A stretch of 64,000 bases of DNA from Nitrospira sp. (GTDB lineage: Bacteria > Nitrospirota > Nitrospiria > Nitrospirales > Nitrospiraceae): positions 2,527,001 through 2,591,000 of the forward strand of contig CP054184.1 in the NCBI GenBank assembly GCA_015709715.1, written 5' to 3'. The notes under the pieces are model-generated. The model saw only the letters and a program-made list of their open reading frames with translations. It searched no databases and was not told where the DNA came from. Both the position numbers and the translations under genes were made by a program. Below, piece after piece: positions 45,176 through 63,721 of this stretch. How positions within the stretch are numbered: position 1 is the stretch's first letter; each line of letters opens with the position of its first letter.

Positions 45176-45193
45176 TTATCTCGAGACCATCGC

Positions 45194-46444: not shown

Positions 46445-46449
46445 CGGTC

Positions 46450-47685
46450 GTGGCATTGATCGTTCAGAAATACGGCGGGACCTCCGTCGGAACTATCGAA
46501 CGGATTCACCGGGTGGCCGAGCGGGTTGAGCGGGCCCACAAAGACGGCCATGGTGTGGTAGTTGTGCTGTCGGCGATGAGCGGTGAGACGGATCGGCTCA
46601 TCAAGCTGGCCCATGAGGTCACCGGCACGCCCGACGAGCGTGAAATGGACATGCTGCTCTCGACAGGGGAGCGGGTGACCATTGCGCTGTTGGCCATGGA
46701 CTTGCGTGGGCGCGGAGTGAACGCCCGCTCCTTTACCGGTCGGCAGGTCGGCATCCATACCGACAGCGCCCATACCAAAGCCAGAATTTCCCGCGTGACC
46801 GCCGATCGTATTCGGAATGCGTTGGCGGAAGGTATTGTGCCTGTCGTGGCCGGGTTCCAGGGCATTAATGCCAGTTCGGATGTGACCACCCTGGGGCGCG
46901 GCGGGTCGGATTTGACTGCGGTCGCCCTTGCGGCGGCATTGAAGGCCGATCGATGCATCATTTACACGGATGTGGACGGCGTCTACACGGCCGATCCGAA
47001 TATCGTGCCTGCCGCGCGGCGCCTCGAGAAGATTTCTTATGAAGAGATGCTCGAGATGGCGAGCCTCGGGGCCAAAGTATTACAGAGCCGATCGGTGGAG
47101 TTTGCGGCCAAGTATGCGGTGCCGGTCGAGGTCAATTCGAGTTTCAAGGAAGGAAAGGGAACGCTCGTGACACGTGAAGATGCCGATATGGAAGGGGTCA
47201 TGGTATCCGGGGTCACGGGCGACCGTAATCAGGCCAAGATTACGATTGTCGGCGTGCCGGATCGTCCGGGCATCGCCGCGCGGGTGTTCGGCGCGGTGGC
47301 CGCAGCCAACATCGTGGTCGACATGATCATCCAGAACGTGAGTCAGGCCTCCATGACGGACATCTCGTTCACGGTCCCCAAGCCGGACTTGCGCAAGGCC
47401 GTCGACCTCGTACAGCAGTTGGCGCAGGAAGTTGGTGCTCGGTCGGTGGCGGTCACGGAAGCCATCGCCAAAGTTTCATTGATCGGCGTGGGGATGCGCT
47501 CTCACTCCGGCGTGGCGGCAAAAATGTTCGAGGTGTTGTCCCGCGAAGGCGTCAACATCATGATGATCAGTACGTCGGAGATCAAAATCTCCTGCGTGAT
47601 CGAGGAAAAATATCTGGAGTTGGCGATGCGGACGCTCCATACGGCATTCGGGCTTGATCGGGTGTCGGCTCCTGCGTTGGGCTAG
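46450..47685 (+). CDS. lysC: Aspartate kinase
   Basis: Phosphorylates aspartate, the committed step to lysine, threonine and methionine. The 411-residue enzyme begins [15 protein letters not shown] (the K-F/Y-G-G-T-S signature), has [17 protein letters not shown] and the [14 protein letters not shown] motif, and ends with two ACT domains ([20 protein letters not shown] and [21 protein letters not shown]) for feedback control. It starts 5 bases after apgM, which supports a common message for the pathway. Confidence 0.97.
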
Positions 47686-47727
47686 TCTCGACAGTTCGAC
47701 CGCATCCCTGATACGCTCAGTACACTC

Positions 47728-49368
47728 ATGACCACCCGGCGTACGAAACAACGGCCTCCCAAAGCCGAGCCTGTCACCGTACCGACCTTAACGGCTGCGC
47801 AGACTGCCACGCTCGAAATTTACGACACGACGTTGCGCGACGGTGCTCAGGCGGAAGACGTAAGTTTCTCCGTCGAAGACAAGATCCGTATCGCGCAGCA
47901 ACTGGATGATCTTGGCGTACAGTACATCGAGGGGGGATGGCCGGGCGCCAATCCCAAGGACATCGAATTCTTTCGACAGATCAAAACCCTGCCATTTCGT
48001 CATGCGACGGTGGTCGCGTTCGGCTCGACGCGGAAGGCCAGCAACCCGGTTCGCCAGGACAGAAACCTCCAGGCGTTGCTTGCGTCCGAGATGCAGACCA
48101 TTACGCTGTTCGGCAAGAGCTGGTCGTTTCAGGTAACGGATGCACTGAACATCTCGCTCGCCAAGAATCTGGAATTGATTGAGGACTCCATTCATTATTT
48201 GCGTTCGAAGGGGCGCCGCGTTTTCTATGACGCCGAGCATTTCTTCGACGGCTATAAGGCCAACCCGGAGTACGCCCTGCAGACCATACGGCGAGCCATC
48301 GCCGGTGGAGCCGAGCGCGTGGTCCTGTGCGATACCAACGGCGGCACCATGCCGTGGGAAATTCGCGAAATCTGTCGCGTGGTCAAGCAGGAGTGCCCGG
48401 TGCCGCTGGGGATTCACGCACACAATGACAGCGAAATGGCCGTCGCCAATTCGCTTGTGGCGGTCGAATCCGGCATCCTGCAGGTCCAAGGAACGATCAA
48501 CGGCATCGGCGAACGCTGCGGGAACGCCAACCTGTGTTCGATCATCCCCAACTTGCAACTGAAGATGCAGCGTCCTGCGCTGGGGAAAAATCTTACGCGT
48601 CTCAAGGATGTCTCGGGGTTTGTCACGGAAATCGCCAATTTGATGCCCAACAAGCACCAGCCGTACGTGGGGGATGCGGCGTTCGCACACAAGGGTGGGG
48701 TGCATATCCATGCGGTGTTGAAGAACGCCGCCACCTATGAGCACATCGACCCGGAAGAAGTCGGGAACCGCCGAAGAATTCTCGTTTCGGATTATGCGGG
48801 ACGGAGCGGACTGCTCCAAAAGGTGGAGGCCTACGGTATTTCCCTGGACAAGAATCACGCGAAGCTTCAGGAGCTGGTTGAAACGCTGAAGGAGCGAGAA
48901 AGTCAGGGCTATCAGTTCGAAGGCGCGGAAGGCTCGTTCGAACTGTTGATGCGCAAGGCGATGGGTCATCATCGTCCGTCGTTTGAGTTGCTGGGCTTTC
49001 GGGTCATCGTGGAGAAGAAGCAGGAACAGGGGCTGTTGTTGTCGGAAGCGACCGTGATGGTGAAGGTGGGTCATGTCGTGGAACACACAGCCGCCGTCGG
49101 GACCGGCCCTGTGAACGCACTCGACCATGCGCTGCGAAAGGCGTTGGAAAAGTTTTATCCGCAACTTCGCGAGGTGAAGCTGCTGGATTACAAGGTGCGG
49201 GTGTTGTCTGCCAGCGAAGGGACAGAATCCAAGGTGCGGGTCCTGATCGAATCGGGTGATCATAAAGAGAAATGGGGAACAGTCGGCGTGTCGGAGAACA
49301 TTATGGAGGCCAGCTGGCAGGCCTTGGCTGACAGTATTGAGTATAAATTGTTGCTCGCGGATCGGTAG
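47728..49368 (+). CDS. cimA: Citramalate synthase
   Basis: Condenses pyruvate and acetyl-CoA to (R)-citramalate, an alternative start for isoleucine that bypasses threonine deaminase. The 546-residue protein has the DRE-TIM start IYDTTLRDGAQAEDVSF, the GVQYIEGGWPGANPKD pattern specific to CimA as against IPMS, a HAHNDSEMAVANS metal site and a C-terminal LeuA-type regulatory domain (about residues 430-545). It follows lysC by 42 bases and is the last gene of the operon. Confidence 0.93.
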   Translation: MTTRRTKQRPPKAEPVTVPTLTAAQTATLEIYDTTLRDGAQAEDVSFSVEDKIRIAQQLDDLGVQYIEGGWPGANPKDIEFFRQIKTLPFRHATVVAFGSTRKASNPVRQDRNLQALLASEMQTITLFGKSWSFQVTDALNISLAKNLELIEDSIHYLRSKGRRVFYDAEHFFDGYKANPEYALQTIRRAIAGGAERVVLCDTNGGTMPWEIREICRVVKQECPVPLGIHAHNDSEMAVANSLVAVESGILQVQGTINGIGERCGNANLCSIIPNLQLKMQRPALGKNLTRLKDVSGFVTEIANLMPNKHQPYVGDAAFAHKGGVHIHAVLKNAATYEHIDPEEVGNRRRILVSDYAGRSGLLQKVEAYGISLDKNHAKLQELVETLKERESQGYQFEGAEGSFELLMRKAMGHHRPSFELLGFRVIVEKKQEQGLLLSEATVMVKVGHVVEHTAAVGTGPVNALDHALRKALEKFYPQLREVKLLDYKVRVLSASEGTESKVRVLIESGDHKEKWGTVGVSENIMEASWQALADSIEYKLLLADR

Positions 49369-49398
49369 GTCTCGACCCCCGAGAGGTGCACATAGTCC

Positions 49399-49427
49399 TT
49401 GACAGGGCAGGTAACCTCACGTAACTT
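49399..49427 (+). promoter_or_regulatory. Promoter of ihfA-merR
   Basis: Consensus TTGACA, 17-base spacer, TAACTT, giving a leader of about 75 bases before the IHF gene. Confidence 0.5.
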
Positions 49428-49509
49428 ATGGGAAAATTCTTTTCTTGGACGCTCGACACCAAGAAAGACTTCCTAAGGAACGACTCTAGTGGACGGCGGG
49501 GGGAGAGGC

Positions 49510-49785
49510 ATGAGAAAGGCGGATATTGCGAACGAAATCTTCAAACAGGTTGGCGTGTCCAAGAACGATGCGGCTGATATCGTCGAGCTCGTACTCAACC
49601 TGCTGAAGGAAGTGTTGCAGAAAGGCGATGCGGTCAAGATCGCCGGATTTGGAAATTTCGTGGTTCGGAGCAAAGGAGCCCGCAAGGGACGGAACCCCCG
49701 CACGGGTGAAGAGATCGGGATCACTCCTCGTCGAGTGGTGACCTTTCGGCCCAGTCAGGTCTTTAAGAAGTACGTCAATTCCTAG
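49510..49785 (+). CDS. ihfA: Integration host factor alpha-like / HU family protein
   Basis: Predicted 91-residue DNA-bending protein. RKADIANEIFKQVGVSKNDAADIVELV and the tip VVRSKGARKGRNPRTGEEIGI, with RRVVTFRPSQVFKKYV at the end, are closest to IHF alpha. The ATG at 49510 has GGGGAGAGG upstream and is preferred to a GTG at 49489. The next gene is a MerR regulator, an ihfA-merR-tRNA-Pro order also seen in many proteobacteria. Confidence 0.9.
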   Translation: MRKADIANEIFKQVGVSKNDAADIVELVLNLLKEVLQKGDAVKIAGFGNFVVRSKGARKGRNPRTGEEIGITPRRVVTFRPSQVFKKYVNS

Positions 49786-49826
49786 TTGCCACCTTGCCAC
49801 GAGTCACCGCAGCATGAGGACCGGTC

Positions 49827-50177
49827 ATGGGGAATGATCCCAGACTGGGAAGTAAGGTTTTTTATAAGATCGGAGAAGTCAGCAAGATTGCCAAATTGCC
49901 CGCGTATGTCCTGCGGTTTTGGGAGTCGGAGTTCAGTTTCTTAAAACCACGGAAGAGTCGCGGGAATCAGCGACTGTATGTGCAACGAGATGTGGAGACG
50001 GTGCTGGAGATCAAGCGGATGCTCTATGATGAGGGGCATACGCTGGCCGGAGTGAAACGGTACTGGGCCCGTCGAGGCCGGGTCAACCAGAAGCGCGGTT
50101 CACGGAAAGAGCTGGCGCAACGCGTTAGGGGAGATCTCCAGGCGATCATTCGGTTGATCGACTCATATCCGTCTTGA
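49827..50177 (+). CDS. MerR family transcriptional regulator
   Basis: A 116-residue protein that is almost only the MerR DNA-binding domain: [27 protein letters not shown] (helix-turn-helix), then [36 protein letters not shown], with a short charged C-terminal helix. No effector-binding domain or Cys cluster is present, so it does not sense metal in the usual way. It stands 41 bases after ihfA and 62 bases before tRNA-Pro. Targets unknown. Confidence 0.92.
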
Positions 50178-50239
50178 ACCGTTCCAGTGATGCGGGCGGC
50201 TGCGTCCTCACCACGCAGGTACATCGATGTCGTGTATGT

Positions 50240-50316
50240 CGGGGCGTAGCGCAGCCTGGTAGCGCACTCGCTTGGGGTGCGAGTGGTCGTGGGTTCAAAT
50301 CCCGCCGCCCCGACCA
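50240..50316 (+). tRNA. tRNA-Pro (anticodon GGG)
   Basis: A 77-base cloverleaf ending in encoded CCA. The acceptor stem pairs CGGGGCG with CGCCCCG, the anticodon stem CTCGC/GCGAG encloses TTGGGGT with anticodon GGG, and the T arm is GTGGG-TTCAAAT-CCCGC. It decodes CCC and CCU. Confidence 0.96.
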
Positions 50317-50415
50317 TCGACATGATGAGGTTCCGCAATCGGTTCCGTCCTCCCTCCCTCAGCCCTACCCCGCCGAAGTCCCGTTCTCACAATGTTCTCG
50401 AGAGGAGAAGCGATT

Positions 50416-51231
50416 GTGGCACGTCCGCGCATCCTGGTGACCAACGATGACGGTATCACCTCCCCGGGCCTCCATGCGGTGGCAGGCGCGCTTCGTGCGC
50501 TCGGGGATGTGTGGGTAGTGGCACCTGATCGTGAGCGAACGGCGGTGGGGCATGCCGTGACCCTGCATAAACCGCTTCGGATTACCAAGCTCGCCCCGCG
50601 CGTCTTTGCGGTGAACGGGACGCCTGTGGACTGCGTCAACTTGGCGTTGGTCAAGGTTTTGCCGGCGTCGCCTGCCCTGATCGTGTCCGGCATCAACCGC
50701 GGTGTCAACCTTGGGGATGACGTCATGTACTCAGGCACCGTGTCGGCTGCGCTGGAGGGAGCAATCTTGGGCGTCCCTTCCATGGCCGTTTCACAGGAAG
50801 GCGACGAGACCTTTCGCTTCGAGGTGGGGGCTCTCTATGCGGCACGGGTAGCCCAAGAAGTTCTTACGGAGGGATTGCCGCCGGAAACCATTCTCAATGT
50901 GAATATTCCGAACCGGTCACTGGGGATGATCAAGGGGGTCAAGATCACGTGCCTGAGTCGGCGTCGATTTGAAAATCCCATCGTGGAAAAAGTCGACCCT
51001 AGAGGACGTACATATTATTGGATCGCCGGAACCCGCCAATCATGGGGTCGCCGGGAGAATGCCGACCATGAGGCCTTGGCGCGGCGGATGGTGTCGGTCA
51101 CGCCGATTCATCTCGACACGACGCATTACGGCGTGCTGGATCGCTTCAAACGGTGGGAATCGGCCCTGTCGCGGCCGCCTGTGCGTCGCCGGGCCACCAC
51201 TCGAAAGGTGCGAAAGAGAGGACGCGCATGA
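50416..51231 (+). CDS. surE: 5'/3'-nucleotidase SurE
   Basis: Metal-dependent survival-protein nucleotidase. From the GTG at 50416 (AGAGGAG 8 bases upstream) the 271-residue protein reads RPRILVTNDDGITSPG with the acidic metal pair Asp11-Asp12, then PDRERTAVGHAVTLHKPLRI, NGTPVDC and SGINRGVNLGDDVMYSGTVSAA. An ATG at 50392 is in frame but has no ribosome site. An Arg-rich C-terminal tail (VRRRATTRKVRKRG) extends beyond the family's usual end. It overlaps the DedA gene by 4 bases. Confidence 0.95.
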   Translation: MARPRILVTNDDGITSPGLHAVAGALRALGDVWVVAPDRERTAVGHAVTLHKPLRITKLAPRVFAVNGTPVDCVNLALVKVLPASPALIVSGINRGVNLGDDVMYSGTVSAALEGAILGVPSMAVSQEGDETFRFEVGALYAARVAQEVLTEGLPPETILNVNIPNRSLGMIKGVKITCLSRRRFENPIVEKVDPRGRTYYWIAGTRQSWGRRENADHEALARRMVSVTPIHLDTTHYGVLDRFKRWESALSRPPVRRRATTRKVRKRGRA

Positions 51232-51863
51232 CCGGCCTCATCGAATGGCTGATCGAGCAACTCGGCCGATTCGTCATCGCGACGATTTCGGCCTTTGGTT
51301 ACACCGGCATTGCCATTACCATGGCGATTGAGAGTGCCTGCATTCCACTGCCCAGCGAAATCATCATGCCCTTCTCCGGCTACTTGGTGTCGACCGGCCA
51401 ATTCTCGATGGTCGGAGTGACGCTGGCCGGGGCGATCGGCAACGTGTTGGGGTCACTGGTGGCCTATTATGTCGGCGTGTGGGGGGGGCGTCCCTTCGTG
51501 GAGCGCTACGGCCGGTATTTCCTGATCTCTCAGCATGATTTGGAAATGGCCGATCGGTGGTTTACGAAACATGGAGACGCGGCGGTGCTGGTCAGTCGCC
51601 TCCTGCCGGTCGTGCGAACCTTCATCTCGCTGCCGGCAGGAATCGCTCGGATGAATGTGACGAAGTTCGTAGTCTTTTCCTTCATCGGTGCCGTGCCCTG
51701 GTGTTATGCACTCGCCTACGTGGGGCTCAAAATGGGTGAGCACTGGAATCAGTTGCGGGAATACTTTCATCACGCCGATCTGGCGATCGGACTGGTCCTG
51801 GCTGCCGGGCTTGGGTACTTCCTATGGTCGCACTGGCCGAGGCGCCGAACCTCCATGGAGTAA
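51228..51863 (+). CDS. DedA family membrane protein
   Basis: A 211-residue integral membrane protein with about five helices and the DedA/SNARE-associated signature: ESACIPLPSEIIMPFSG, the YYVGVWGGRPFVERYG segment, FTKHGDAAVLVSRLLPVVRTF and AGIARMNVTKFVVFSFIGAVPW. Members of the family handle lipid carriers such as undecaprenyl phosphate. The ATG at 51228 has AGAGAGGA upstream and overlaps the surE stop by 4 bases. cysS follows 9 bases later. Confidence 0.93.
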   Translation: MTGLIEWLIEQLGRFVIATISAFGYTGIAITMAIESACIPLPSEIIMPFSGYLVSTGQFSMVGVTLAGAIGNVLGSLVAYYVGVWGGRPFVERYGRYFLISQHDLEMADRWFTKHGDAAVLVSRLLPVVRTFISLPAGIARMNVTKFVVFSFIGAVPWCYALAYVGLKMGEHWNQLREYFHHADLAIGLVLAAGLGYFLWSHWPRRRTSME

Positions 51864-51872
51864 CCGTTCATC

Positions 51873-53333
51873 ATGTTGCGTCTCTACAATACGTTGACTG
51901 GAAACAAGGACCAATTTGAACCTCTGGTGCCCGGAAGAGTGCGCATGTACGTTTGTGGCGTCACGGTCTATGATTACTGTCATCTGGGGCATGCCCGAAG
52001 CGCCCTCGTGTTCGATGTCCTCCGACGATTTTTGGAATATGCCGGGTATGCCGTCGAATTCGCGAAGAACTTCACTGATGTGGATGACAAGATCATCAAG
52101 CGGGCCAACGAGCAGGGGGTCAGCTGCGACCGGATCACGGCCACCTATATCGACGCGTACTATGAGGATATGGGCAAGCTTGGCGTGCGCCGGGCCACGG
52201 TGGAGCCGCGAGCAACCGAACACATCGGCGACATTGTCGCCCTGGTCGACCGCTTGGTATCGAAGGGCCTGGCCTATCGGGTCGATGGGGACGTGTATTT
52301 CCAGGTCGATCGTTATCCGATGTATGGTCGACTGTCCAAACGCAAACTGGAGGATTTGCAAGCGGGGGCACGAGTGGATGTGGATGAACGCAAACGGCAT
52401 CCGATGGATTTTGCACTCTGGAAGGGCAGCAAACCCGGGGAGCCGGCTTGGGACAGTCCCTGGGGGCCGGGACGGCCAGGCTGGCACATCGAATGCTCGG
52501 CCATGGCTATGCGGCATCTCGGTGACACATTCGATATCCATGGCGGCGGCATGGATTTGATTTTTCCGCACCATGAAAATGAGATTGCCCAGTCGTGCGG
52601 AGCCACAGGAAAAGAGTTCGCACGTTATTGGGTTCACAATGGATTCGTGCAGACCAATCAGGAAAAGATGTCTAAGTCGTTGGGGAATTTCTTCACGATT
52701 CGCGACATCCTCAAGCAATCCGAATGGCCTGAGGCAATTACCGGCGAAATACTGCGGTACTTCCTCCTCTCCACGCATTACCGGAGTCCGCTGGAATTTT
52801 CGGATCAAAGTCTGCGGGAAGCCAAGTCTGCCTTGAATGGATTCTACGACCTGTTCGAGCGGCTGAAGGAGTCGACTCCGGCCCAAGGGGCTGCCGATAA
52901 CCAGCTGCAGAAAGAAATCGTGCGGTTGCGACAGGAGTTCGTGGAGGCGATGGAAGATGATCTGAACACCCCTGCGGCGGTGGCGGCTCTCCAGAAGCTG
53001 CGTGGGGAGGCGAACAGGTGCCTTGAGGCGGGGGTGGGAGAAGAGGCGCGATCGGCGGTCCGCCAAGAGTTTTGCAAGCTAGGTGATGTGTTGGGGCTGT
53101 TGCAGATGCCCAACTGGCAATTTAAGAGTCAGGTTCCGCAAACGCCGGATGGACAGGGTGCGGAAGGGCACATGACCCTGTCGGACGAAGACATTGCAGC
53201 GCAAATCGCGGCGCGGATCGAGGCCAAGAAAGCGAAAGACTATGGCCGCGCCGATCGGATCAGGGCGGAATTGGCGTCCTTCGGCATCACGATCGAGGAT
53301 CGGCCTGATGGCACGAGTCGATGGAAACGATAA
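51873..53333 (+). CDS. cysS: Cysteinyl-tRNA synthetase
   Basis: Charges tRNA-Cys. The 486-residue class I synthetase has the zinc-binding Cys28, the HIGH-like HLGH (37-40), FAKNFTDVDDKIIKRA, the substrate loop GRPGWHIECSAMA and the KMSKS loop EKMSKSLGN near residue 264, then the helical tRNA-binding end. The length is normal. Its 3' end overlaps rlmB by 26 bases. Confidence 0.98.
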   Translation: MLRLYNTLTGNKDQFEPLVPGRVRMYVCGVTVYDYCHLGHARSALVFDVLRRFLEYAGYAVEFAKNFTDVDDKIIKRANEQGVSCDRITATYIDAYYEDMGKLGVRRATVEPRATEHIGDIVALVDRLVSKGLAYRVDGDVYFQVDRYPMYGRLSKRKLEDLQAGARVDVDERKRHPMDFALWKGSKPGEPAWDSPWGPGRPGWHIECSAMAMRHLGDTFDIHGGGMDLIFPHHENEIAQSCGATGKEFARYWVHNGFVQTNQEKMSKSLGNFFTIRDILKQSEWPEAITGEILRYFLLSTHYRSPLEFSDQSLREAKSALNGFYDLFERLKESTPAQGAADNQLQKEIVRLRQEFVEAMEDDLNTPAAVAALQKLRGEANRCLEAGVGEEARSAVRQEFCKLGDVLGLLQMPNWQFKSQVPQTPDGQGAEGHMTLSDEDIAAQIAARIEAKKAKDYGRADRIRAELASFGITIEDRPDGTSRWKR

Positions 53334-54090
53334 CGGCCCGGAATTGATCTACGGCCTCCATGCCGTTCGGGAAGCGTTGAGAGCAGGCGGCAGGCCTCTG
53401 CAGCGGCTGCTGGTGTTGGGGACCGATCGGCAATTCCGGGACATTGTCCAGCTCGCGAGGGAGAAGCGGGTGCCCGTGCATCTTGAGCCACGGTCGGCGT
53501 TCGATCGTTTGGTGCCTGCCGGCCGCCATCAAGGGGTTGTCGGAGTGGCGGCGGCCAAGGCCTATGCGGAGCCGGGTGCCATTCTGGAACGAGCGAAAGC
53601 GGAGGGGCAGGTGCCGCTTCTGGTTTTGCTGGATGGCGTCGAAGATCCGCACAATCTCGGCGCGATCCTGCGTACGGCTGAAGCTTCTGGTGCTCAGGGC
53701 CTGTTCATTCCCGAGCGACGGGCCGTCGGTCTGACCAGTGTCGTTGCAAAGGCTTCAGCCGGTGCGGTCGATTACATTCCGGTGGGGCGCGTGACCAACT
53801 TGACCCGCTTGATCGAGCGGTTGCAAGCCGAGGGCCTGTGGGTCTATGCCTTAGCCGCCGAAGCCCCCAAGCTTTACACGATGTTGGACCTCCGTGGGCC
53901 GGTTGCGCTGGTGTTGGGGGGGGAAGGGCAGGGGGTACGCCCGTCAGTGTTGAACGCCTGCGACGATGCCGCTCGCATTCCCATGATGGGGCACGTCGGT
54001 TCGCTGAACGTCTCGGCAGCGACGGCGGTCATTCTGTATGAAGCCCTGCGTCAGCGACGAGAGAACCAGCCTGGGGGGGAGCGAGCCTGA
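53308..54090 (+). CDS. rlmB: 23S rRNA / tRNA 2'-O-methyltransferase, SpoU family
   Basis: SPOUT methyltransferase of about 260 residues, closest to RlmB (2'-O-methyl G2251 of 23S rRNA). An N-terminal L30-like domain (ELIYGLHAVREAL, VHLEPRSAFDRLVP, RHQGVVGVAA) is followed by the knotted domain with motif 1 DGVEDPHNLGAILRTAE, motif 2 LVLGGEGQG and motif 3 MMGHVGSLNVSAATAVILYE. The ATG at 53308 lies inside the end of cysS. Convergent with the LuxR-type regulator gene. Confidence 0.93.
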   Translation: MARVDGNDNGPELIYGLHAVREALRAGGRPLQRLLVLGTDRQFRDIVQLAREKRVPVHLEPRSAFDRLVPAGRHQGVVGVAAAKAYAEPGAILERAKAEGQVPLLVLLDGVEDPHNLGAILRTAEASGAQGLFIPERRAVGLTSVVAKASAGAVDYIPVGRVTNLTRLIERLQAEGLWVYALAAEAPKLYTMLDLRGPVALVLGGEGQGVRPSVLNACDDAARIPMMGHVGSLNVSAATAVILYEALRQRRENQPGGERA

Positions 54091-54104
54091 GTTCGAAAGG
54101 GAGG

Positions 54105-54395
54105 CTACCGCAGGCGCAGCAGCTTGCCTTGGATTGCGGCCTTCAGCAGCTGAGCGGTGTTGGAGACGCGGATTTTCTTCATCATGTTTGCTCGATGCGC
54201 TTCCACCGTCTTCACGCTGATTTTCAAGCGCTGGGCGATTTCCTTGTTCTTGAACCCGGTCCAGATCAGTTCGAGAATTTCCTGCTCCCGGGTGGTGAGC
54301 GTTTCCGGCCGCCGCTTGGGCAGCGAAGGGGCGACGTCCAATGGGGAGAGTTTTTTTCGGCTCTTGATGGTCTTGCCCGTTGTGGTCATGTGCAT
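54105..54395 (-). CDS. Orphan LuxR-type DNA-binding regulator
   Basis: A 96-residue protein that contains only a LuxR/GerE helix-turn-helix: LTTREQEILELIWTGFKNKEIAQRLKISVKTVEAHRANMMKKI, then NTAQLLKAAIQG. No receiver or autoinducer domain is present, so control must come from its own level or from a partner. A basic N-terminal stretch precedes the domain. Its promoter shares a -35 element with the divergent pilus operon promoter, which makes it a candidate regulator of the pilus genes. It ends 14 bases from rlmB. Confidence 0.9.
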   Translation of the reverse strand: MHMTTTGKTIKSRKKLSPLDVAPSLPKRRPETLTTREQEILELIWTGFKNKEIAQRLKISVKTVEAHRANMMKKIRVSNTAQLLKAAIQGKLLRLR

Positions 54396-54465
54396 CTGGC
54401 TCCGCTACGAATCCGTCCAACCGTTCGGGTGAGCTCTGCGACGTTCGGCGTCAGAGTACGTACGA

Positions 54466-54494
54466 ATTATACGCAGTTCTCCTAGCTTTTGCAA
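54466..54494 (-). promoter_or_regulatory. Promoter of the LuxR-type regulator
   Basis: On the minus strand: TTGCAA (54489-54494), 17-base spacer, consensus TATAAT (54466-54471), about 70 bases upstream of the regulator start. TTGCAA is palindromic and is used again on the plus strand. Confidence 0.6.
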
Positions 54495-54518
54495 ATAGGG
54501 CGCCGGAGAAAATATAGT
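54489..54518 (+). promoter_or_regulatory. Promoter of the pilD pilus operon
   Basis: On the plus strand the same TTGCAA (54489-54494), 18-base spacer, TATAGT (54513-54518), with the transcript start near 54525. Opposite polymerases would compete for this site. Confidence 0.5.
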
Positions 54519-54610
54519 CGTGAGAATGGTGAAAAACTAGTAGGCAATTATACATATGTTATATGCCGCCCATGCCGTCGGCGTGTGAAACGGGGCCGTC
54601 AGGAACGGAA

Positions 54611-55384
54611 ATGACGTCGTATCTGATCATATTTCTGTTTGGAGCCGTGATCGGCAGTTTCCTCAATGTCTGTATCTATCGATTGCCTCGTGGAGAGTCG
54701 GTCGCGTGGCCGGCTTCGTCATGCCCTTCATGTAGGCAGGGAATCGCTTACTACGACAACATTCCGATTGCGAGCTACCTATGGCTTCGGGGGCGATGCC
54801 GCGTCTGCGAAGTCACCATCTCGCCTCAATACCCGGTGGTGGAAGCGGTGACCGCGTCGGCCTACGTCCTGCTGTTCTGGTGGTTCGGGTTTACAGCGGA
54901 GGCCTGGGCCTATGCCTTGCTGACTTCGGGCCTCATCGTGATCACCGGCACGGACCTCTCGCACACCATGATTCCGGATGTCGTCACGCTGCCGGGTATC
55001 GTGGCTGGGCTGCTCTGTGCCGCCATTGTCCTTCCCATCAGTGTCGTCGACTCGTTGCTGGGCCTCCTCGTAGGAGGGGGGATTCTGTGGTTTCTCGCGT
55101 GGATCAGCCCCTATCTCTTCGGAAAGGAAGGGATGGGCGGCGGTGACATCAAACTCATGGCTATGGTGGGGGCCTTCCTCGGCTGGCAACCGGTGTTGTT
55201 AGCTATCATGCTGGGCTCACTTCTGGGCTCGCTGGTCGGTGGGGGATTGATGATGTCTGGAGTATTACGTCGCGGTCAGTATATTCCGTTCGGACCGTTC
55301 CTCGCACTCGGATCACTGCTTGCCTTGTTTTTTCATCAGCCGCTGTTCACCTGGTACTGGACACTGCTCGACTTGCCGCAGTGA
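54611..55384 (+). CDS. pilD: Type IV prepilin peptidase / N-methyltransferase
   Basis: Inner-membrane aspartyl protease that cuts prepilin leaders and methylates the new N terminus. The 257-residue protein starts FLFGAVIGSFLNVCIYRLPRGES, has the cytoplasmic zinc pair Cys38-x2-Cys41 and Cys63-x2-Cys66, the first active-site Asp115 in TDLSH, and the GGGD motif (Asp179 in KEGMGGGDIK), plus about six to eight membrane helices. The ATG at 54611 has AGGAA upstream; an in-frame ATG at 54563 lacks a ribosome site. It opens the pilus region. Confidence 0.94.
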   Translation: MTSYLIIFLFGAVIGSFLNVCIYRLPRGESVAWPASSCPSCRQGIAYYDNIPIASYLWLRGRCRVCEVTISPQYPVVEAVTASAYVLLFWWFGFTAEAWAYALLTSGLIVITGTDLSHTMIPDVVTLPGIVAGLLCAAIVLPISVVDSLLGLLVGGGILWFLAWISPYLFGKEGMGGGDIKLMAMVGAFLGWQPVLLAIMLGSLLGSLVGGGLMMSGVLRRGQYIPFGPFLALGSLLALFFHQPLFTWYWTLLDLPQ

Positions 55385-55439
55385 ATTCCTGTAAACAGGC
55401 TGCCAGTAATGATTTGCAGCCACTCGTCTGTCGACTGAC

Positions 55440-55470
55440 TGTATCCGAATGGATGAGCGGTTGTATCCGA
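55440..55470 (+). repeat. Direct repeat upstream of the first minor-pilin operon
   Basis: TGTATCCGA occurs twice, starting at 55440 and 55462, that is 22 bases apart (about two helical turns) in the 291-base gap between pilD and fimT. The spacing suits a regulator bound on one face of the DNA. The rest of this gap holds no recognised gene. Confidence 0.35.
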
Positions 55471-55675
55471 TTCGTGACAGTTCAGAAGTGTCCACTCCGC
55501 CGGTTGTGACCATCCGTCCGCATCTCCCGCTGACAGTCTGCCATATTCTCTCGACATCTCCATAGGTTTGCGGATCTCACGTCTGCGCGGTGCCGGTGAT
55601 GGCCCTTGCCGCCTGGATAGAGCCGAACGGCATAGAAATTGGAAATGCCTTACGCGCCGACGAAAAGGAGCTTCT

Positions 55676-56110
55676 ATGAATGAACGTGGTGTGAGTCTCA
55701 TTGAATTGTGCGTGGTCACGGCCATGATCGCGATTGTGGTCGGCGTGAGCCTTCCGAGTTGGGCGACCTTGGTAGCCAAATATCAACACCGCGCGATTGA
55801 GTCGGAAATAGCCTCGGAGTTACGCATGGCTCGTCAGCTGGCGATCGTGCGCCGGGAGCGGATCCGGGTCGTCGTAGACGTCGATCGGTCGGAGTTGCGG
55901 ACCGAGTGCGTGGACTGCGGCATGGGACCCCTCCGTCGGTATGACTTTTCTCGCAAGGGGACGGTGATCAGTTCCATGACGACGGGTCCTGAGGTCGTAT
56001 TCCAGCCCAGTGGGCGGTCTGCTACCGCGACCACCATCATTCTCTTTGACCGAAATCAGACGCCTCATCGTCTGACGGTGAGCATGACCGGGCGGGTGGT
56101 CCTGTCATGA
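55676..56110 (+). CDS. Type IV minor pilin, FimT/GspH-like (set 1)
   Basis: Predicted 144-residue pseudopilin with leader MNERG cut before V: ERGVSLIELCVVTAMIAIVVG, with Glu five residues after the cut as in type IV pilins. The C-terminal part is beta-rich (RIRVVVDVDRSELRTECVDCG) with a Cys pair, the GspH/FimT globular domain. The ATG at 55676 has AAAAGGAG upstream. It overlaps the next gene by 4 bases (ATGA). Minor pilins prime pilus assembly at the inner membrane. Confidence 0.87.
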   Translation: MNERGVSLIELCVVTAMIAIVVGVSLPSWATLVAKYQHRAIESEIASELRMARQLAIVRRERIRVVVDVDRSELRTECVDCGMGPLRRYDFSRKGTVISSMTTGPEVVFQPSGRSATATTIILFDRNQTPHRLTVSMTGRVVLS

Positions 56111-56631
56111 TCGGGAAGAAGAAAGGGATCGGCCGGCCATGGAACGGTTGGAAGAAAGCCGACGGGTGTACCCTGGTGGAGAGTATGGTGGCGTTGGTGG
56201 TTCTTTCCATCGGTGTGATCGGAGGCATGGGAATGTGTGAGTGGGCGGAACAAGGGCTGCAGCGAGGCGTGCTGGCGAATCGGGCGTTGAGCGCCGCTGA
56301 ATCGTGCTTGGAGGCGAAACGTAGCCTCCCATGGGAGGGGCTGTTGTGGGACGACCTGGATCAAGATGGAGTGCTGGAATCCAGGATGCACGACGACGGG
56401 TTGCAAGGCGATGAGATCGCCGGCGACGGTATCTTCACAGGCAGTCTTACGAAAGGCGATATGCGGTTGCTCTGGACGGTGGAGTTCAATCGCAGTGGGC
56501 AGGGTGCGTTTGCCAGCCTGGCGACGATCGAAGCGCGGGCCATGTTCACGACGATCCGTGGCCGCGAACATGCCATCAGACTGCGGACGATTGTGGCGAA
56601 TCCACGTTACGTAGGAGCGTCTTCATTGTGA
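56107..56631 (+). CDS. Type IV minor pilin, PilV-like (set 1)
   Basis: Predicted 174-residue prepilin with a class III type cleavage site (KKADG before CTLVESMVALVVLSIGVIGGMG) and the PilV-like C-terminal half. The residue after the cut is Cys instead of the usual Phe/Met, which is unusual because N-methylation normally falls on a hydrophobic residue. It overlaps fimT by 4 bases and pilW by 4 bases, so the three are coupled. Confidence 0.85.
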   Translation: MIGKKKGIGRPWNGWKKADGCTLVESMVALVVLSIGVIGGMGMCEWAEQGLQRGVLANRALSAAESCLEAKRSLPWEGLLWDDLDQDGVLESRMHDDGLQGDEIAGDGIFTGSLTKGDMRLLWTVEFNRSGQGAFASLATIEARAMFTTIRGREHAIRLRTIVANPRYVGASSL

Positions 56632-57407
56632 GGAATCAGGCCGTGAGCGGACAGAGTTCAACGGTCCTGCCTTCGCAACGGACCGTCGACATGGGGTGTC
56701 GCGGGTTCAGTCTGATCGAGCTGCTTATGGCGCTGACGATCGGGGGCGTCGCAGTAGCCGCGGCTCTTTATATGTTCTCGGCATATGGAGGGCGGTTTCA
56801 TGCGCAGCAGTCGGCTATGGTGAGCAATCAAGAACTACGGCTCGCCATGGACGTACTCTGCAACGAGGTTCGTCTGGCGGGCGCCGGCGTGATGGGCGGT
56901 GACGTGCCGCTTACGACGATGAGGCCCGATGAAATGGAGTTTTTCGCGAATCTGAACGGCACCGCGACCGTGCTGACTCGCCTCGCCCTTCCGGGCGAGG
57001 CGGAGTTATCGGTGGAAAACGCTGCCGGTTGGTCCAAAGGAAAGCAGGTGCTGCTCTGTACGGCGGAGTCCTGCATGTGGAACCGTCTGGCTGCCGAGGG
57101 GCGAAAGCTGGCATTGCCGCTGACGACGCCCTTGGCTGCGGCTCTACCGGCGTGAAGTGCGGCGTTCCTTCTAAATCGAGTTCACTACTATCTGAAGGTC
57201 GACGAGGATGGGACCACGCGCTTGATGCGAGCGGTGGATGGCGGAGCCAGTACCTTGGTGGCCGACGTACGAGAATTTCATCTCCAGTATCTCGATCGGC
57301 ACGGTCGCGAGACGGCAGCGGCCGATGAGGTGGTGCGCGTGCGCGTGCGTGCGCAAGTTGGAGTGTCAGGAACGCCGTTTACGCAGGACATTGCGATCAG
57401 GGCTTGA
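56628..57407 (+). pseudogene. Type IV minor pilin PilW-like, interrupted by an in-frame TGA (set 1)
   Basis: A PilW-like prepilin with a leader ending CRG before FSLIELLMALTIGGVAVAAAL. The frame is open for 175 codons, meets TGA at 57153-57155 and then, in the same frame, continues for 83 codons as AAFLLNRVHYYLKVDEDG and VRVRVRAQV to a TGA at 57405. The continuation has the usual PilW C-terminal pattern (RVxYYL, DG, L-R, VR.RV). One base change accounts for the break, so this is a recent nonsense mutation, a sequencing error or a readthrough site. The 175-residue product would lack about one third of the protein. Confidence 0.75.
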
Positions 57408-57429
57408 ATGTAACAGAAGGAACAGAACG

Positions 57430-58905
57430 ATGAGCAACAATCGAATGCGGTTCAGGTATGCAGAGAATGAACGCGGCGTGGCCTTATTGGCCGTGTTAAT
57501 GGTGGTTTTCTTGATGACGCTGTTGGGGCTGACGTCCGCCCAGCTGGCGGGACAGGAAATGATCATCGCCGGCGCATTGCACGAGGAACGGCTCGCGCAG
57601 CATGCCGTCGATGCTGCCGTGGACGTTGTGACGGGGTGGTTCCACGATCCCGCACTCGTGCCGCACGACATCGCCTCGACGTTCTTGGCCAAACGTACTG
57701 CGAATGCGCAAGGCGCACCGTCCTATGTTGATGCCCAAGGCCGGTCACAATTCATCGGGACCGCGGAGCAGCCGGATCTGGTGTTCGACGCGGCTGTACC
57801 CGCCCAAGACCGCCTGCTCAATGATCCTCTCACCGGCTGGTTTCGGTCGCTCAAGGGCCTAGCCCGTATCCTGAAATTGCGTGTCTATGGTCCGACTAGG
57901 CCTGGGCTGCTCTGTACCGTCGAGGTGATGGCAGGGGCGGGGCGCGTGACGAAATCGGTGGCGATGGAATTGGGAGCCTATGCGATTCCGTCTCTCCATG
58001 CACCGATACAAACCGGCGCATTGGGCAGCGATGTCGAAGGATCGCGTCCCGGGTCGGTCACGGCCCATTGGGGTGATCTGGTTGTGCGCGGCCATGCGTA
58101 TCTGTCTCGAGCCGATGAGATTCCAGCGAAAAGCTCCCTGGCGTCCGTGACGGGGCAATCCTATGCCGAAATGGGCTATCGGGAGGATCGATGGGTGGAT
58201 CTCTGGATCGGTGGAGAGGTGTTTTTTTCTCAGGTCCCATCTGAGACTAAAACGGAGGTTCCGGCCAATGTACATGTACGACAGATGCCCGTTCCCGGTA
58301 TCAAAATGGATCAGTGGGAGTATGAGGCACTGAAGCGGATGGCTAAGCAGTTTGGACGGTATTACGGAATAGATCGTGATGGCTTTCTCTATCTCGGTGG
58401 GGTGATTCAGCCGGGTTCGGGAATCCGAGCGGCCGAGGTGTTCGCCTCGTCCGGAGTCGGCAACCATCAAGGGCTGGTCTTTATCGACACGCTCGATGCC
58501 CAACCGCCACGTGCGGACAATTTGGGAACGATTGTGCTCGACCAGGAGTATGCGGAGGGCATGTTCGTGGTGAATGCTCATGTGCACTGGAGGGTACGGG
58601 AGAAAGGCCAATCTGTTCCGGCACTCAGTCCTCCGCCCGAAGGCGAGACATCCTTGGGCACCCGAGTGCCGGCGCAGCTGAGCGACATCCATCTGCAGGG
58701 CGTGCTGTATACGGCCGGTGATCTGCGGTATGCAGGGCACGTCAAAATTTACGGTGGCATTGCCGCCCAGGGAGCGCTTGTCGATGAGACGAACGGATTT
58801 GGTGCATTGGAGGTGTGGTTCAACCATGAATTGCGGGATGGGTTCGTGCAGGGAGTACCGGTGGTTTTCCAGGCACCGGGTAGTCGTCAGGTGCGAATAA
58901 TGTAA
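57430..58905 (+). CDS. Large PilX-like minor pilin (set 1)
   Basis: Predicted 491-residue protein with a PilX-type N terminus: ERGVALLAVLMVVFLMTLLGL, then GQEMIIAGALHEERLAQHAVDAAVD. It is more than twice as long as an ordinary PilX (about 200 residues). The extra C-terminal part (about 200-480) is beta-rich with repeated Gly-turns (GGVIQPGSG, GDLRYAGHVKIYGGIAAQGAL) and may be a beta-helix. The ATG at 57430 has AAGGAA upstream; a longer in-frame stretch back to 57238 overlaps the pilW end and lacks pilin character. It starts 22 bases after the pilW stop. Confidence 0.78.
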   Translation: MSNNRMRFRYAENERGVALLAVLMVVFLMTLLGLTSAQLAGQEMIIAGALHEERLAQHAVDAAVDVVTGWFHDPALVPHDIASTFLAKRTANAQGAPSYVDAQGRSQFIGTAEQPDLVFDAAVPAQDRLLNDPLTGWFRSLKGLARILKLRVYGPTRPGLLCTVEVMAGAGRVTKSVAMELGAYAIPSLHAPIQTGALGSDVEGSRPGSVTAHWGDLVVRGHAYLSRADEIPAKSSLASVTGQSYAEMGYREDRWVDLWIGGEVFFSQVPSETKTEVPANVHVRQMPVPGIKMDQWEYEALKRMAKQFGRYYGIDRDGFLYLGGVIQPGSGIRAAEVFASSGVGNHQGLVFIDTLDAQPPRADNLGTIVLDQEYAEGMFVVNAHVHWRVREKGQSVPALSPPPEGETSLGTRVPAQLSDIHLQGVLYTAGDLRYAGHVKIYGGIAAQGALVDETNGFGALEVWFNHELRDGFVQGVPVVFQAPGSRQVRIM

Positions 58906-58946
58906 TGTGAGAGTGTCGGCGAGCGAATGGAAGAAAGGAAGAAAGC

Positions 58947-60737
58947 ATGATTCGGGGAGCCGTATCGGGGAGTGAAGCGCTGCAGGGTGTCGCACGTGTG
59001 ACGACAAGGGCGGTGACCGACGCCTATCACAAATTGGTCGACCAGGGCTTTCTTCGGAAGGAAGAATTGATGACTGCGAAAGGAGAGGCCGTTCGCCGAA
59101 CGGTCGATCTCGCGACAGTGTTGATGGATCGGTATCGAATTCCTAAACCAGCGATCGGCGCAGTCCTAACCGAGTTTTACGGTTGTCCCTTTCAGCCCTA
59201 TGACGAGCGCATCGTCATTGACCGGGGGTTGGTGAAGAATCTGAACGTAGACTATCTTCGCCTGAACCACTGGGTGCCTCTCGCACGTCATGGGTCTGTG
59301 GTCGAAATCCTCATCGATGATCCGCACAATTCGGAAAAGGTGCTCGATGTGCGTCGCGCCTTCCCCGGAGCGGTGCTGTCGTATCGAGTGGGATTGCCGC
59401 GCGATATCGAGCGGTTTCTCCTTATGGGGCAGGCCCGGCAACCGGATGACTTGATAACAGACATTTTGGGAGAGCTGGTCAGCGAGGCCCAAATCGAAGA
59501 CCAACAAAATGCGACGATTGCCGCGATTACGGAAAATGACTCCGCGATTGTGCGTCTCGCCAACCAGGTTATCGCTGAGGCCTATCGACAGGGAGCTTCT
59601 GATATTCATATCGAGCCCTACTCCGACCGAAAGGAAACATCGGTACGTTTTCGGGTGGATGGCACGTGCTTTACCTACATGAAGATTCCGGCGGCGTATC
59701 GTCGGGCGATCGTGTCTCGCATCAAGATTATGGCGAACCTGGACATTGCGGAGCGACGCAAGCCACAGGACGGCAAGATTCGATTCAAACTGACGACGGG
59801 GCAAGAGATCGAGTTGCGAGTGGCGACGCTGCCGACAGCTGGGTTCAATGAAGATGTGGTGATTCGCCTGCTGGCAGGAAACGGTCCACGTCGTATGGAG
59901 GACTTGGACTTCAGCACAGAGACCCTGCAACTGCTGACCGAGTTGGCGCAGAAACCCCACGGGATTGTGTTGTGTGCCGGGCCAACCGGCTCGGGCAAGA
60001 CCACGACACTGCACGCTCTCCTGGCGTCGATTAATAACGAGGAGCGAAAGATCTGGACGGCCGAGGATCCTATAGAGATCACCCATGATGGGTTGCGGCA
60101 GGTTCAGGTGCATCCCAAAATCGGTCTGACGTTTGCCGCGACTATGCGGGCATTCCTCCGAGCGGATCCGGACGTCATCATGATCGGAGAAATGCGTGAT
60201 AAGGAAACGGCCGATATTGCGATCGAGGCGTCTCTCACCGGGCATTTGGTCTTCAGTACTATTCATACCAACAGTGCGGTGGAAACGGTGGTGCGGCTCC
60301 TGGATTTGGGGTGCGATCCCTTCAATTTTTCCGATGCCATGCGAGGAGTGTTGGCGATGCGTCTATGCAAACGGATCTGTCTCAACTGTCGAGAGTTTTA
60401 TCAGCCGAATCAGGATGAGTGCGACGAGTTGGCCCGCGCGTACGGACGGCCGGAATGGGAATGTCTAGGCAAGGTGAATGGCCATCCCCTCCGACTCGCA
60501 CGAGGCAGGGGCTGTCCGGCGTGTAATCAGACCGGTTATCGGGGACGGATTCCTATCCATGAGTTGATGGTCGGATCTGAACCTCTGAAAGAATTGATTC
60601 AAAGCCGGGCTCGAACCGCTGAACTGTTGAAGCAGGCCAAGCAAGATGGGATGAAAACGCTGTTGCAAGACGGAATAGAAAAGGTGGTTCGAGGTCTCAC
60701 GACCTACAAACAGGTTCGCGCGGTGGCCATCAAGTGA
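58947..60737 (+). CDS. pilB: Type IV pilus assembly ATPase PilB
   Basis: Hexameric cytoplasmic ATPase that powers pilus extension. The 596-residue protein has an N-terminal MshEN/T2SSE_N region (AVLTEFYGCPFQPYDE), the Walker A GPTGSGKTTT near residue 346, Asp box RADPDVIMIGEMRDKETADIA, the His box GHLVFSTIHTN and a four-Cys zinc motif (CLNC and CPAC with about 50 residues between). It lies between the two minor-pilin sets. PilC and PilT are not in the window. Confidence 0.93.
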   Translation: MIRGAVSGSEALQGVARVTTRAVTDAYHKLVDQGFLRKEELMTAKGEAVRRTVDLATVLMDRYRIPKPAIGAVLTEFYGCPFQPYDERIVIDRGLVKNLNVDYLRLNHWVPLARHGSVVEILIDDPHNSEKVLDVRRAFPGAVLSYRVGLPRDIERFLLMGQARQPDDLITDILGELVSEAQIEDQQNATIAAITENDSAIVRLANQVIAEAYRQGASDIHIEPYSDRKETSVRFRVDGTCFTYMKIPAAYRRAIVSRIKIMANLDIAERRKPQDGKIRFKLTTGQEIELRVATLPTAGFNEDVVIRLLAGNGPRRMEDLDFSTETLQLLTELAQKPHGIVLCAGPTGSGKTTTLHALLASINNEERKIWTAEDPIEITHDGLRQVQVHPKIGLTFAATMRAFLRADPDVIMIGEMRDKETADIAIEASLTGHLVFSTIHTNSAVETVVRLLDLGCDPFNFSDAMRGVLAMRLCKRICLNCREFYQPNQDECDELARAYGRPEWECLGKVNGHPLRLARGRGCPACNQTGYRGRIPIHELMVGSEPLKELIQSRARTAELLKQAKQDGMKTLLQDGIEKVVRGLTTYKQVRAVAIK

Positions 60738-60932
60738 AAGGCAAGCCGTTGTCGGCCCGTTATATATTCGTCGCTGGGAGTTCGCAGGGCGACAAAATTT
60801 GTCAATGTCAGGAGGTCTGAACGCTCGGAATTGTACTGCCCCTCGCCAGATCCCTAAGAAAAATATCAAAGAATTAGAGTGGGATAGGGAGACCATCATG
60901 ACGGCATGGCATTTGCTCCCCTCCTGCTCGCC

Positions 60933-61409
60933 ATGGAAGCGCCTGCGTGTTCGCGACAATCTCCTCTTGCCTTGAGGCAACAGGGTTTTACTCTGGTGGA
61001 GGTCATGATTGCGGTCGCCATCGTCAGCATTCTCACGATGGTGGCCATTCCGAATTACCTTCAGTGGAACGCCCGCTATCAACTCAAGCAGGCCACGACC
61101 GAACTGGCTGGAAGCCTGACCCTGGCTCGATTAGCGGCGATGAACAGAAACCTTACCGTTAGCGTTCAACTGACATTGGTTGCCGGGAGGGTCACAGTCG
61201 ACTTCGGAGGCGCACTGGCTCCAGTGACCCTTCCGCCCCAAATTGTCTCCTTCGCCGGCGGCCCGACGATCCAATTTACGCCCCAAGGGTTAAGTGGAGC
61301 ATCCACCACACAAACCGTGATCCTCACATCCGAACAGGGAACGATGTACGCGGTCGTCGTCACTCCGGCCGGCAAGGTGAATTGGTGTGCCAAGTCAACC
61401 TGCCCCTAA
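60933..61409 (+). CDS. Type IV minor pilin, FimT/GspH-like (set 2)
   Basis: Predicted prepilin of about 158 residues. The leader ends RQQG before FTLVEVMIAVAIVSILTMVA, with Glu five after the cut. The C-terminal domain is beta-rich and ends with a Cys pair (WCAKSTCP) that can form a small loop. The start is uncertain: ATG at 60906 and 60933 both lack a ribosome site, and a TTG at 60972 gives a very short leader. The best ribosome site in the region (AGGGA before ATG 60898) opens only a 25-codon frame. Confidence 0.82.
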   Translation: MEAPACSRQSPLALRQQGFTLVEVMIAVAIVSILTMVAIPNYLQWNARYQLKQATTELAGSLTLARLAAMNRNLTVSVQLTLVAGRVTVDFGGALAPVTLPPQIVSFAGGPTIQFTPQGLSGASTTQTVILTSEQGTMYAVVVTPAGKVNWCAKSTCP

Positions 61410-61416
61410 GTCGCGC

Positions 61417-61941
61417 ATGAACGCTATGAGTTATGGTCGACCCACGTCAGTCGAAGGCCCTATGCATCAGCGGGGCTTTACTATTCTAGAAGCGATGGTG
61501 GCCGCTGGGGTGCTTTCGGTGGGGTTGTTGGGACTGGCAGGTCTTCAAGGAATGTCGCTCGGGAAAAATGTCGATGCGAATGATGTAACTCGCGTGACAA
61601 ATCTCGCGGCCGACATGGCCGAGCGAATCCAAAACAATCGGCAGTACGTTTTGGATTACCACAACACGGATACTGGCGTTGCCTGCCCGCAGAATGTGAG
61701 CACGCAACGAATGGCTCTCGGAGATTGCGCCCAATGGCAGACGCTTGTGGCAAATTCCAGGCTTGCTGGAGCTCGTGGGGTCATCACGGTGACCAGTCTG
61801 GATCCAAACCCCACAGCGAATCCAGTCACAATGAACCGATTCTTGGTCACGATCACCGTAAGCTGGCAAACCATGCGTACTGATGTCAGTACAGCGCGAA
61901 CCAAGACCGTGACCTTCACCAGTTTGGTTGCACCCGAATAA
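61417..61941 (+). CDS. Type IV minor pilin, PilV-like (set 2)
   Basis: Predicted 174-residue prepilin. The leader ends MHQRG before FTILEAMVAAGVLSVGLLGLA, then DVTRVTNLAADMAERIQNNRQ, a PilV hallmark (LA.DMAERI..N). The C-terminal domain is beta-rich with two Cys pairs' worth of cysteines (ACPQN and GDCAQW). It starts 7 bases after fimT and ends 18 bases before pilW, so it is part of one operon. The upstream 61387 extension is in frame but overlaps fimT and is not favoured. Confidence 0.87.
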   Translation: MNAMSYGRPTSVEGPMHQRGFTILEAMVAAGVLSVGLLGLAGLQGMSLGKNVDANDVTRVTNLAADMAERIQNNRQYVLDYHNTDTGVACPQNVSTQRMALGDCAQWQTLVANSRLAGARGVITVTSLDPNPTANPVTMNRFLVTITVSWQTMRTDVSTARTKTVTFTSLVAPE

Positions 61942-61959
61942 TTGAAGAGGGTGGAAGTT

Positions 61960-63066
61960 ATGAGAATGCGTCAATGCGCAGCGAGCGAGCATGGGTTTAC
62001 GCTTGTGGAATTGATGATCGCCGTTCTGATCACGGTAGTCATTGTGGCGGCCACCCTGACGATGGTCGTCACATCGAATCGCGCCAATGTCGTCAATACT
62101 CAAGTTGCGGATGCGCAACAAAATGTTCGATTGGGCATTGATCTGATCGCGCGTGACATCAAGCTTGCCGGTTATAACTACAACGCCACCGATCCAGGGA
62201 CAGCAGCTGTGGGTGCGTGTAACACTACGATCGGCGCTATCGTAAGGCCAGTCGGTTTGCTGCCTCAGGACCAGGCTCCGGCAGCCGCTGATACCGGCCC
62301 GGACGGTGTGTCCATGGTGCTTCCAATCAACGCGACCGGATGGACGCTGACTGCGGCGGTAGGGGGGACGCAGAATGCGCCTGCTCAGGACAATTCGATC
62401 ACTCTCTCGAGCACGGCCATTGCCGAAATGAGTGCCCGCGGGCTTGGCGTCGGATCAACAATTTCGATCGGAGGGGCGCTGTCCAAGACTGTGGCATCTG
62501 TGGGCGCCACCTCAATCGGCTTTGGAACAAACAACTATGTCGATGGGAAGTTTCCCATCGGCACACCTATTTATCTCATGCAATGCGTTCGGTATCAAGT
62601 CGTAACCAACACGCCGGCGACGTGCGGGGGTGATGCGCCATGCCTGGTCAGAGACAATGTGCCGATAGTCGACGGGGTTGAAGATCTCCAAATTACCTAT
62701 GCCTGCGATGGGTGCAATCAAACGGCTCCAAATCCACTTCTGCCAGATGGGGTTGTGGACAACCAAGACGGGTCGTCATCCATGGGATTGCCTACCTTCA
62801 CCCAAGGAGATTTCATTTCGAACAACTCGTGGGCCGTCACTCCGTGGACGCCGGACAAGATTAAGATGGCGCAGGTCAGCCTCGTCGTTCGGCAAACCAA
62901 GGAGGACCAGGGGTTAAACGAAAGAGGCACGCGTGGTATTAACACCACCGGCCCCGTCGTGGTCGGCGACCACGACCCTTCTGCAGATCCCACCTATAAC
63001 GAAACGACATATCAGCAGCAGCGACGGCGCGTCTTGGTCAGGACCATACAACCACGGAATCTGTAG
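61960..63066 (+). CDS. Type IV minor pilin, PilW-like (set 2)
   Basis: Predicted 368-residue prepilin, full length. Leader SEHG before FTLVELMIAVLITVVIVAATL, with the PilW segment QVADAQQNVRLGIDLIARDIKLAGYN. The C-terminal half contains several Cys, including a CxxC (ACDGCNQ), and a VRQTKEDQGLNERG region. Unlike the set 1 homologue it has no internal stop. The ATG at 61960 has GAGGG upstream; a TTG at 61942 is also in frame. Confidence 0.88.
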   Translation: MRMRQCAASEHGFTLVELMIAVLITVVIVAATLTMVVTSNRANVVNTQVADAQQNVRLGIDLIARDIKLAGYNYNATDPGTAAVGACNTTIGAIVRPVGLLPQDQAPAAADTGPDGVSMVLPINATGWTLTAAVGGTQNAPAQDNSITLSSTAIAEMSARGLGVGSTISIGGALSKTVASVGATSIGFGTNNYVDGKFPIGTPIYLMQCVRYQVVTNTPATCGGDAPCLVRDNVPIVDGVEDLQITYACDGCNQTAPNPLLPDGVVDNQDGSSSMGLPTFTQGDFISNNSWAVTPWTPDKIKMAQVSLVVRQTKEDQGLNERGTRGINTTGPVVVGDHDPSADPTYNETTYQQQRRRVLVRTIQPRNL

Positions 63067-63084
63067 CGGGCTGGCGTAATACGT

Positions 63085-63696: not shown

Positions 63697-63721
63697 GCGA
63701 ACGGAATCAACGAGGTATGTC

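Follow-up and report, generated by a model that had tools for sequence, protein, structure and literature searches.

Gene pair and intergenic region

The question raised by this locus is whether a gene for a LuxR-type regulator and the divergently transcribed pilD are expressed from promoters that share one palindromic -35 hexamer, and whether such sharing acts as a switch. The window is the whole stretch of Nitrospira DNA that was analysed (64 kb). There is a hexamer, TTGCAA, at 54489-54494 that is its own reverse complement. At a distance of 17 bases to its left lies TATAAT on the minus strand (plus-strand ATTATA, 54466-54471), and 18 bases to its right lies TATAGT (54513-54518, plus strand). 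The initial annotation read these as the -10 hexamers of the luxR-type gene and of pilD, and the letters and distances are as it described. The two -10 hexamers are separated by 41 bases (54471 to 54513), and on geometric grounds two polymerases should indeed be unable to occupy the site together.

The leftward gene (54105-54395, minus strand) encodes a 96-aa LuxR-type (GerE) DNA-binding protein (Pfam GerE, 2.7e-20, residues 32-84), in which the Pfam search detected no sensor, receiver or other kind of domain. There is an orthologue in 29/29 genomes of the genus. The rightward gene, pilD (54611-55384, plus strand), encodes a type IV prepilin peptidase (A24_N_bact and Peptidase_A24). Alignment with relatives and an upstream AGGA place its start at 54611 and not at the upstream ATG at 54563. 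The two genes are divergent neighbours in 107 of the 109 loci of Nitrospira and its kin that carry the LuxR-type gene, with an intergenic distance of about 158-244 bp, and the GerE-only/pilD arrangement is a conserved gene pair. The other two loci were excluded because pilD is missing from them: in L042 the contig stops 139 bp upstream, and in L059 there is no pilD match in 3,000 bp. Neither a published function or study of this pair nor a map of transcription start sites for Nitrospira appeared among the literature records listed. A gap of about 291 bp (55385-55675) lies between pilD and the following pilin-like gene, whose true start is likely at 55676, so that a single operon led by pilD is not assured and the proposal that pilD heads a pilus operon is unproven.

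For comparison, 108 intergenic regions, including that of the window, were collapsed to 88 distinct sequences. We defined close relatives by a pilD identity of at least 73%, which gave 28 relatives plus the window; the 59 other distinct regions are called distant. The pilD of the window has a best identity of 78%, and its branch in the pilD tree is unusually long, at 0.36 changes per column where the median end branch has 0.04. One record titled 'uncultured Nitrosospira' (L027) falls within Nitrospira in the pilD tree and is probably misnamed.

Promoter of the luxR-type gene

The plus-strand ATTATA is identical in 28/28 close relatives (agreement 1.00), and the five bases that follow it, CGCAG, are about 99% conserved. 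This -10 and its neighbours, ATTATACGCAG, form the most conserved non-coding stretch in the close relatives, and TTTGTAAAT comes after it at a fixed distance. Read on the minus strand the two become ATTTACAAA, which gives a -35 of TTTACA (5/6 of the consensus) and an 18-bp spacer. In the window this -35 is TTTGCA (54490-54495, minus strand). A promoter scan of 45000-64000 finds the leftward site in two equal registers, TTTGCA-18 and TTGCAA-17, each with 10/12 consensus letters. Homology sets the -35 at TTTGCA/TTTACA, and the TTGCAA register of the initial annotation is therefore one base off.

The same arrangement is found in the distant clades, where TATAAT or, in one clade, CATAAT is combined with TTTACA (33/52) or TTTACT (19/52) at 17-18 bp. 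A strict form of the pattern, ATTAT[AG]-N17-18-[TA]GTAAA, is present in 28/28 close and 52/59 distant distinct regions, compared with 0.034% of shuffled sequences. The seven distant regions without it are L033, L051, L053, L070, L077, L078 and L120, and the window itself fails it because of a private base at 54492. Hexamers conserved at the proper spacing are what a sigma-70-type promoter predicts, and the comparison strongly supports the leftward promoter as real and very old. This bears out the part of the initial annotation that assigned a promoter to the luxR-type gene. One ancient housekeeping (sigma-70-type) promoter would transcribe the small LuxR-type gene leftward, with an expected start about 7 bp past the -10, near 54459.

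The same bases could instead be kept as an operator, for example for LuxR-type autoregulation, with dyad symmetry in TTTG[C/T]AAAT and its flanks being conserved and not promoter function. In the close relatives 26-bp dyad symmetry peaks at this place, with 0.50 paired where the mean is 0.26, and bases 54488 to 54497 are almost invariant in them. However, the dyad of this length in the window scores lower (0.38), and the distant clades lack the symmetry: all that persists in them is TTTAC[A/T], spaced from TATAAT as in a promoter. A -35 fits this pattern better than an operator does, and we regard the operator as improbable.

There is also a conserved plus-strand GGTATAAT or GGTATACT in the luxR leader of L060, L063, L065 and L076, between the luxR start and the leftward -10. 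This could be a rightward -10 on the luxR side, which would give a face-to-face overlap in distant clades.

The palindrome depends on one private base

TTGCAA lies inside an 8-bp palindrome, TTTGCAAA (54488-54495). The window has C in column 54492, where 28/28 close relatives have T, and among the 88 distinct regions TTGCAA, or TTTGCAAA, is found at this place in the window only (1/88). In the sequence of the relatives, TTTGTAAA, the outer three bases are symmetric as they stand, and a single substitution therefore suffices to complete the 8-bp palindrome. The other members of the clade and the distant clades have GTAAA, which makes the C at 54492 the derived state. In the pilD tree the window stands alone on its long end branch (0.36) and joins none of the supported subgroups of its clade, and parsimony therefore places the change on that branch.

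A single substitution would thus have replaced T by C on the plus strand and turned TTTACA into TTTGCA in the window genome. It moves the luxR -35 away from the consensus, from 5/6 to 4/6. As the palindrome comes from one base change found in the window genome only, it is no conserved switch but, at the very most, a recent oddity of this locus. The idea of a shared palindromic -35 as a built-in device of this gene pair is not supported, since it is absent from all 28 close relatives.

The region upstream of pilD

The initial annotation took TATAGT as the -10 that serves pilD. This hexamer is not conserved (rank 182 of 210 hexamers by conservation), and none of the 28 close relatives has a -10-like hexamer 16-18 bp to the right of the position of the shared hexamer. 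The rightward match TTGCAA-18-TATAGT has 9/12 consensus letters in the window and lacks the conservation of the -10 in relatives that marks the leftward site; as a promoter of pilD it is unproven, and the relatives have another candidate nearer to pilD.

Close relatives (e.g. L100, L020, L025) keep CTTATT..CCTAGG.....ATACGTATACTTAG upstream of pilD. Their plus-strand candidate site is about 40 bp closer to pilD than TATAGT, and consists of TATACT or TATAAT, located about 55 bp ahead of the pilD start, and of TTATT[G/A] 17 bp further upstream, a poor -35 by the sigma-70 consensus. The place of TTATT[G/A] corresponds to 54532-54537 (plus strand), where the TTATT columns are kept in 24-26 of the 28 relatives; the window has lost it and reads AAAAAC. 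The place of the -10 corresponds to 54555-54560 (plus strand), where 22/28 relatives have a -10-like hexamer (mean 4.75/6), 6/28 are without one and the window has TATGTT (4/6). There is also a conserved block, TAG...TAC[G/A]TAT, at 54541-54557 (plus strand), which is a possible protein-binding site. Its columns in the 28 relatives are T27 A28 G24 followed by T28 A28 C27 .. T28 A27 T26, and the window retains TAG and TACATAT.

Close relatives therefore have a promoter-like site for each gene of the pair. The region 54541-54560 may be the real pilD promoter together with a regulator site, and we infer that the downstream site is the ancestral pilD promoter. In relatives pilD is probably served by this separate site (54532-54560 in window coordinates), which implies that the gene pair normally has non-overlapping divergent promoters. 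In the window, either the old pilD site would still be weakly active, perhaps aided by an activator at the block, or the new upstream match would have taken over.

The block CTTATT..CCTAGG.....ATACGTATACTTAG (up to 3 mismatches) occurs once in each of 13/29 genomes of the genus, in all 13 directly upstream of the luxR orthologue; as it occurs once per genome, it is locus-specific. The leftward promoter pattern and the window's CTAGTAGG...ATACATATG were also considered as regulon motifs and rejected, each occurring once in the window's own genome at up to 3 mismatches. Together with the distribution of the block this gives no evidence of a regulon.

Distant clades carry a different element at the downstream site, which counts against the reading given above. 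Several of them (L039, L076, L045, L077, L086, L031, L060) keep GGCCCTAGT.....TAC upstream of pilD, and in one distant clade the stretch from the GGCCCTAGT element to the pilD start (GGGAAAG.ACTCTG.GCAATTATGCATG) is near-invariant. When near-duplicates were removed, which left 42 of the 88 regions, a small EM motif script picked up GGCCCTAGT..GG.TAC in other clades. For the window and the relatives close to it, the motif fell on the luxR ribosome-binding site, so that no common motif is shown. The GGCCCTAGT element was found once in one of four genomes tested.

Other candidates upstream of pilD were rejected. The consensus of sigma-54 sites is GG-N10-GC, and the letters that suggest such a site in one clade are not kept in other clades. 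For structured RNAs of known families, Rfam gave no matches at gathering scores in eight whole relative loci and none up to an E value of 1 in the window between 54380 and 54640.

How unusual is the rightward match?

Shuffling the intergenic region 20,000 times with its dinucleotides preserved never reproduced the full geometry (a palindromic hexamer with 10 and 9 of 12 consensus letters). This overstates its rarity because it includes the leftward promoter, which is real on independent grounds. If the leftward promoter is taken as given, chance would put a -10 of at least 5/6 at 16-18 bp to its right in about 0.9% of cases, and one of 4/6 in 4.7%. A plus-strand score of at least 10.6 is reached in 2.4% of intergenic shuffles and in 7 of 594 window tiles, the place of the finding included. 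These scores, in the shuffle and tile comparisons as well as in the comparison with relatives given below, come from a rounded E. coli hexamer matrix; the counts of consensus letters (out of 12 or 6) are independent of it.

Nowhere else in the 64 kb does a single palindromic hexamer serve the two directions at 9/12 or better, and the geometry has one exact match in the 4.16-Mb genome and three other places with 2-3 mismatches. A promoter scan of 45000-64000 gave five promoter-like rows at four places, three of them (at two places) belonging to the finding; overall the five matches are no excess over the shuffle mean of 7.3. The rightward match is thus mildly unusual, but not extraordinary for a feature chosen out of 64 kb.

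Being somewhat above chance (1-2%), the match leaves room for a new pilD promoter in the lineage of the window. On this account the old pilD promoter was lost by decay, and TTGCAA-18-TATAGT came into being as a functional replacement, back to back with that of luxR. The two genes would then draw on common DNA for polymerase binding and, at basal levels, compete modestly or not at all. The TATAGT site is the best-scoring plus-strand site of the window's intergenic region, and only one of the 28 relatives, L096, has a plus-strand site that scores higher than its 10.6 (10.8, at the downstream site). Its presence coincides with the loss of the relatives' -35 (AAAAAC), as a functional replacement would look, and there is a purine at the expected start, 54525. 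Against this, the arrangement is found in one genome only, and the old site may still work since the window keeps part of the downstream block. Moreover, new -10/-35 boxes rarely give promoter activity, the share being only about 0.3% in a mutagenesis screen in E. coli (PMC11661796). We treat promoter turnover as a serious minority explanation. A fuller version, in which the proximal site was stripped of its -35 and a small number of base changes created a functional promoter that backs onto the luxR promoter and shares its -35, so that the pilD promoter has moved, is rather doubtful. If true, independent divergent promoters would have become mutually exclusive, a natural and datable case at a single gene pair.

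The explanation that we prefer, and think probable, is an ancient luxR promoter with a private palindrome, the rightward overlap being a coincidence or at most a recent gain. Both the palindrome and the TATAGT 18 bp away are confined to the window, and the 'shared -35' has accordingly arisen by chance in this lineage or, at most, reflects a second promoter acquired recently.

Comparison with known divergent promoters

Overlapping divergent promoters are a kind already known. Those described by Warman, Grainger and colleagues (PMC12825309, PMC10268837) resemble the window in that near-palindromic DNA is read both ways and one polymerase excludes the other. In those promoters a symmetric -10 is shared and the starts lie 7-25 bp apart, most often 18. 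In the window, by contrast, the -35 would be shared and the predicted starts are about 66 bp apart, so that it falls outside the bidirectional promoters in the sense of Warman et al. The Pr/Pc pair of pLS20 (PMC4207663) is alike in that a regulator gene and a target operon diverge from overlapping promoters. In pLS20 the -10 and -35 boxes coincide reciprocally, the starts are mapped and the regulator and DNA looping have been demonstrated, whereas in the window the overlap is known from sequence alone and in one genome only. A third likeness is to ordinary divergent promoters of a regulator and its neighbour, with a conserved gene pair and a promoter-like site for each gene in close relatives. 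The window differs from these in that one site has decayed and a new match overlaps the other.

The initial annotation proposed that mutual exclusion makes a switch between the regulator and the pilus operon. A genuine switch of this kind, in which the shared palindromic -35 makes expression of the regulator and of pilin processing mutually exclusive, would be consistent with the geometry of the two promoters. It also has a precedent in pLS20 Pr/Pc, where an overlapping pair forms a switch because the regulator acts unequally on the promoters, with DNA looping. However, the arrangement is not kept where the gene pair is kept (pair in 107/109 loci, TTGCAA in 1/88 regions, rightward -10 in 0/28 close relatives). 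The substitution that made the palindrome leaves the leftward -35 with fewer consensus letters, and the regulator site is only putative. Exclusion alone need not make a switch either: in E. coli, the two directions of five bidirectional promoters did not compete at basal activity, and competition arose only once one direction was strongly activated (PMC12825309). Taken together, the data make such a switch very unlikely.

Implications

The locus illustrates that an eye-catching promoter geometry can depend on a single private base. Comparison with relatives sorts the real part, a promoter of the luxR-type gene that is conserved across Nitrospira, from the accidental part. It also yields a firmly placed promoter, a corrected -35 register and a conserved luxR-pilD pair. 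The conserved element upstream of pilD is a better candidate for the regulation of pilin processing in these nitrifiers.
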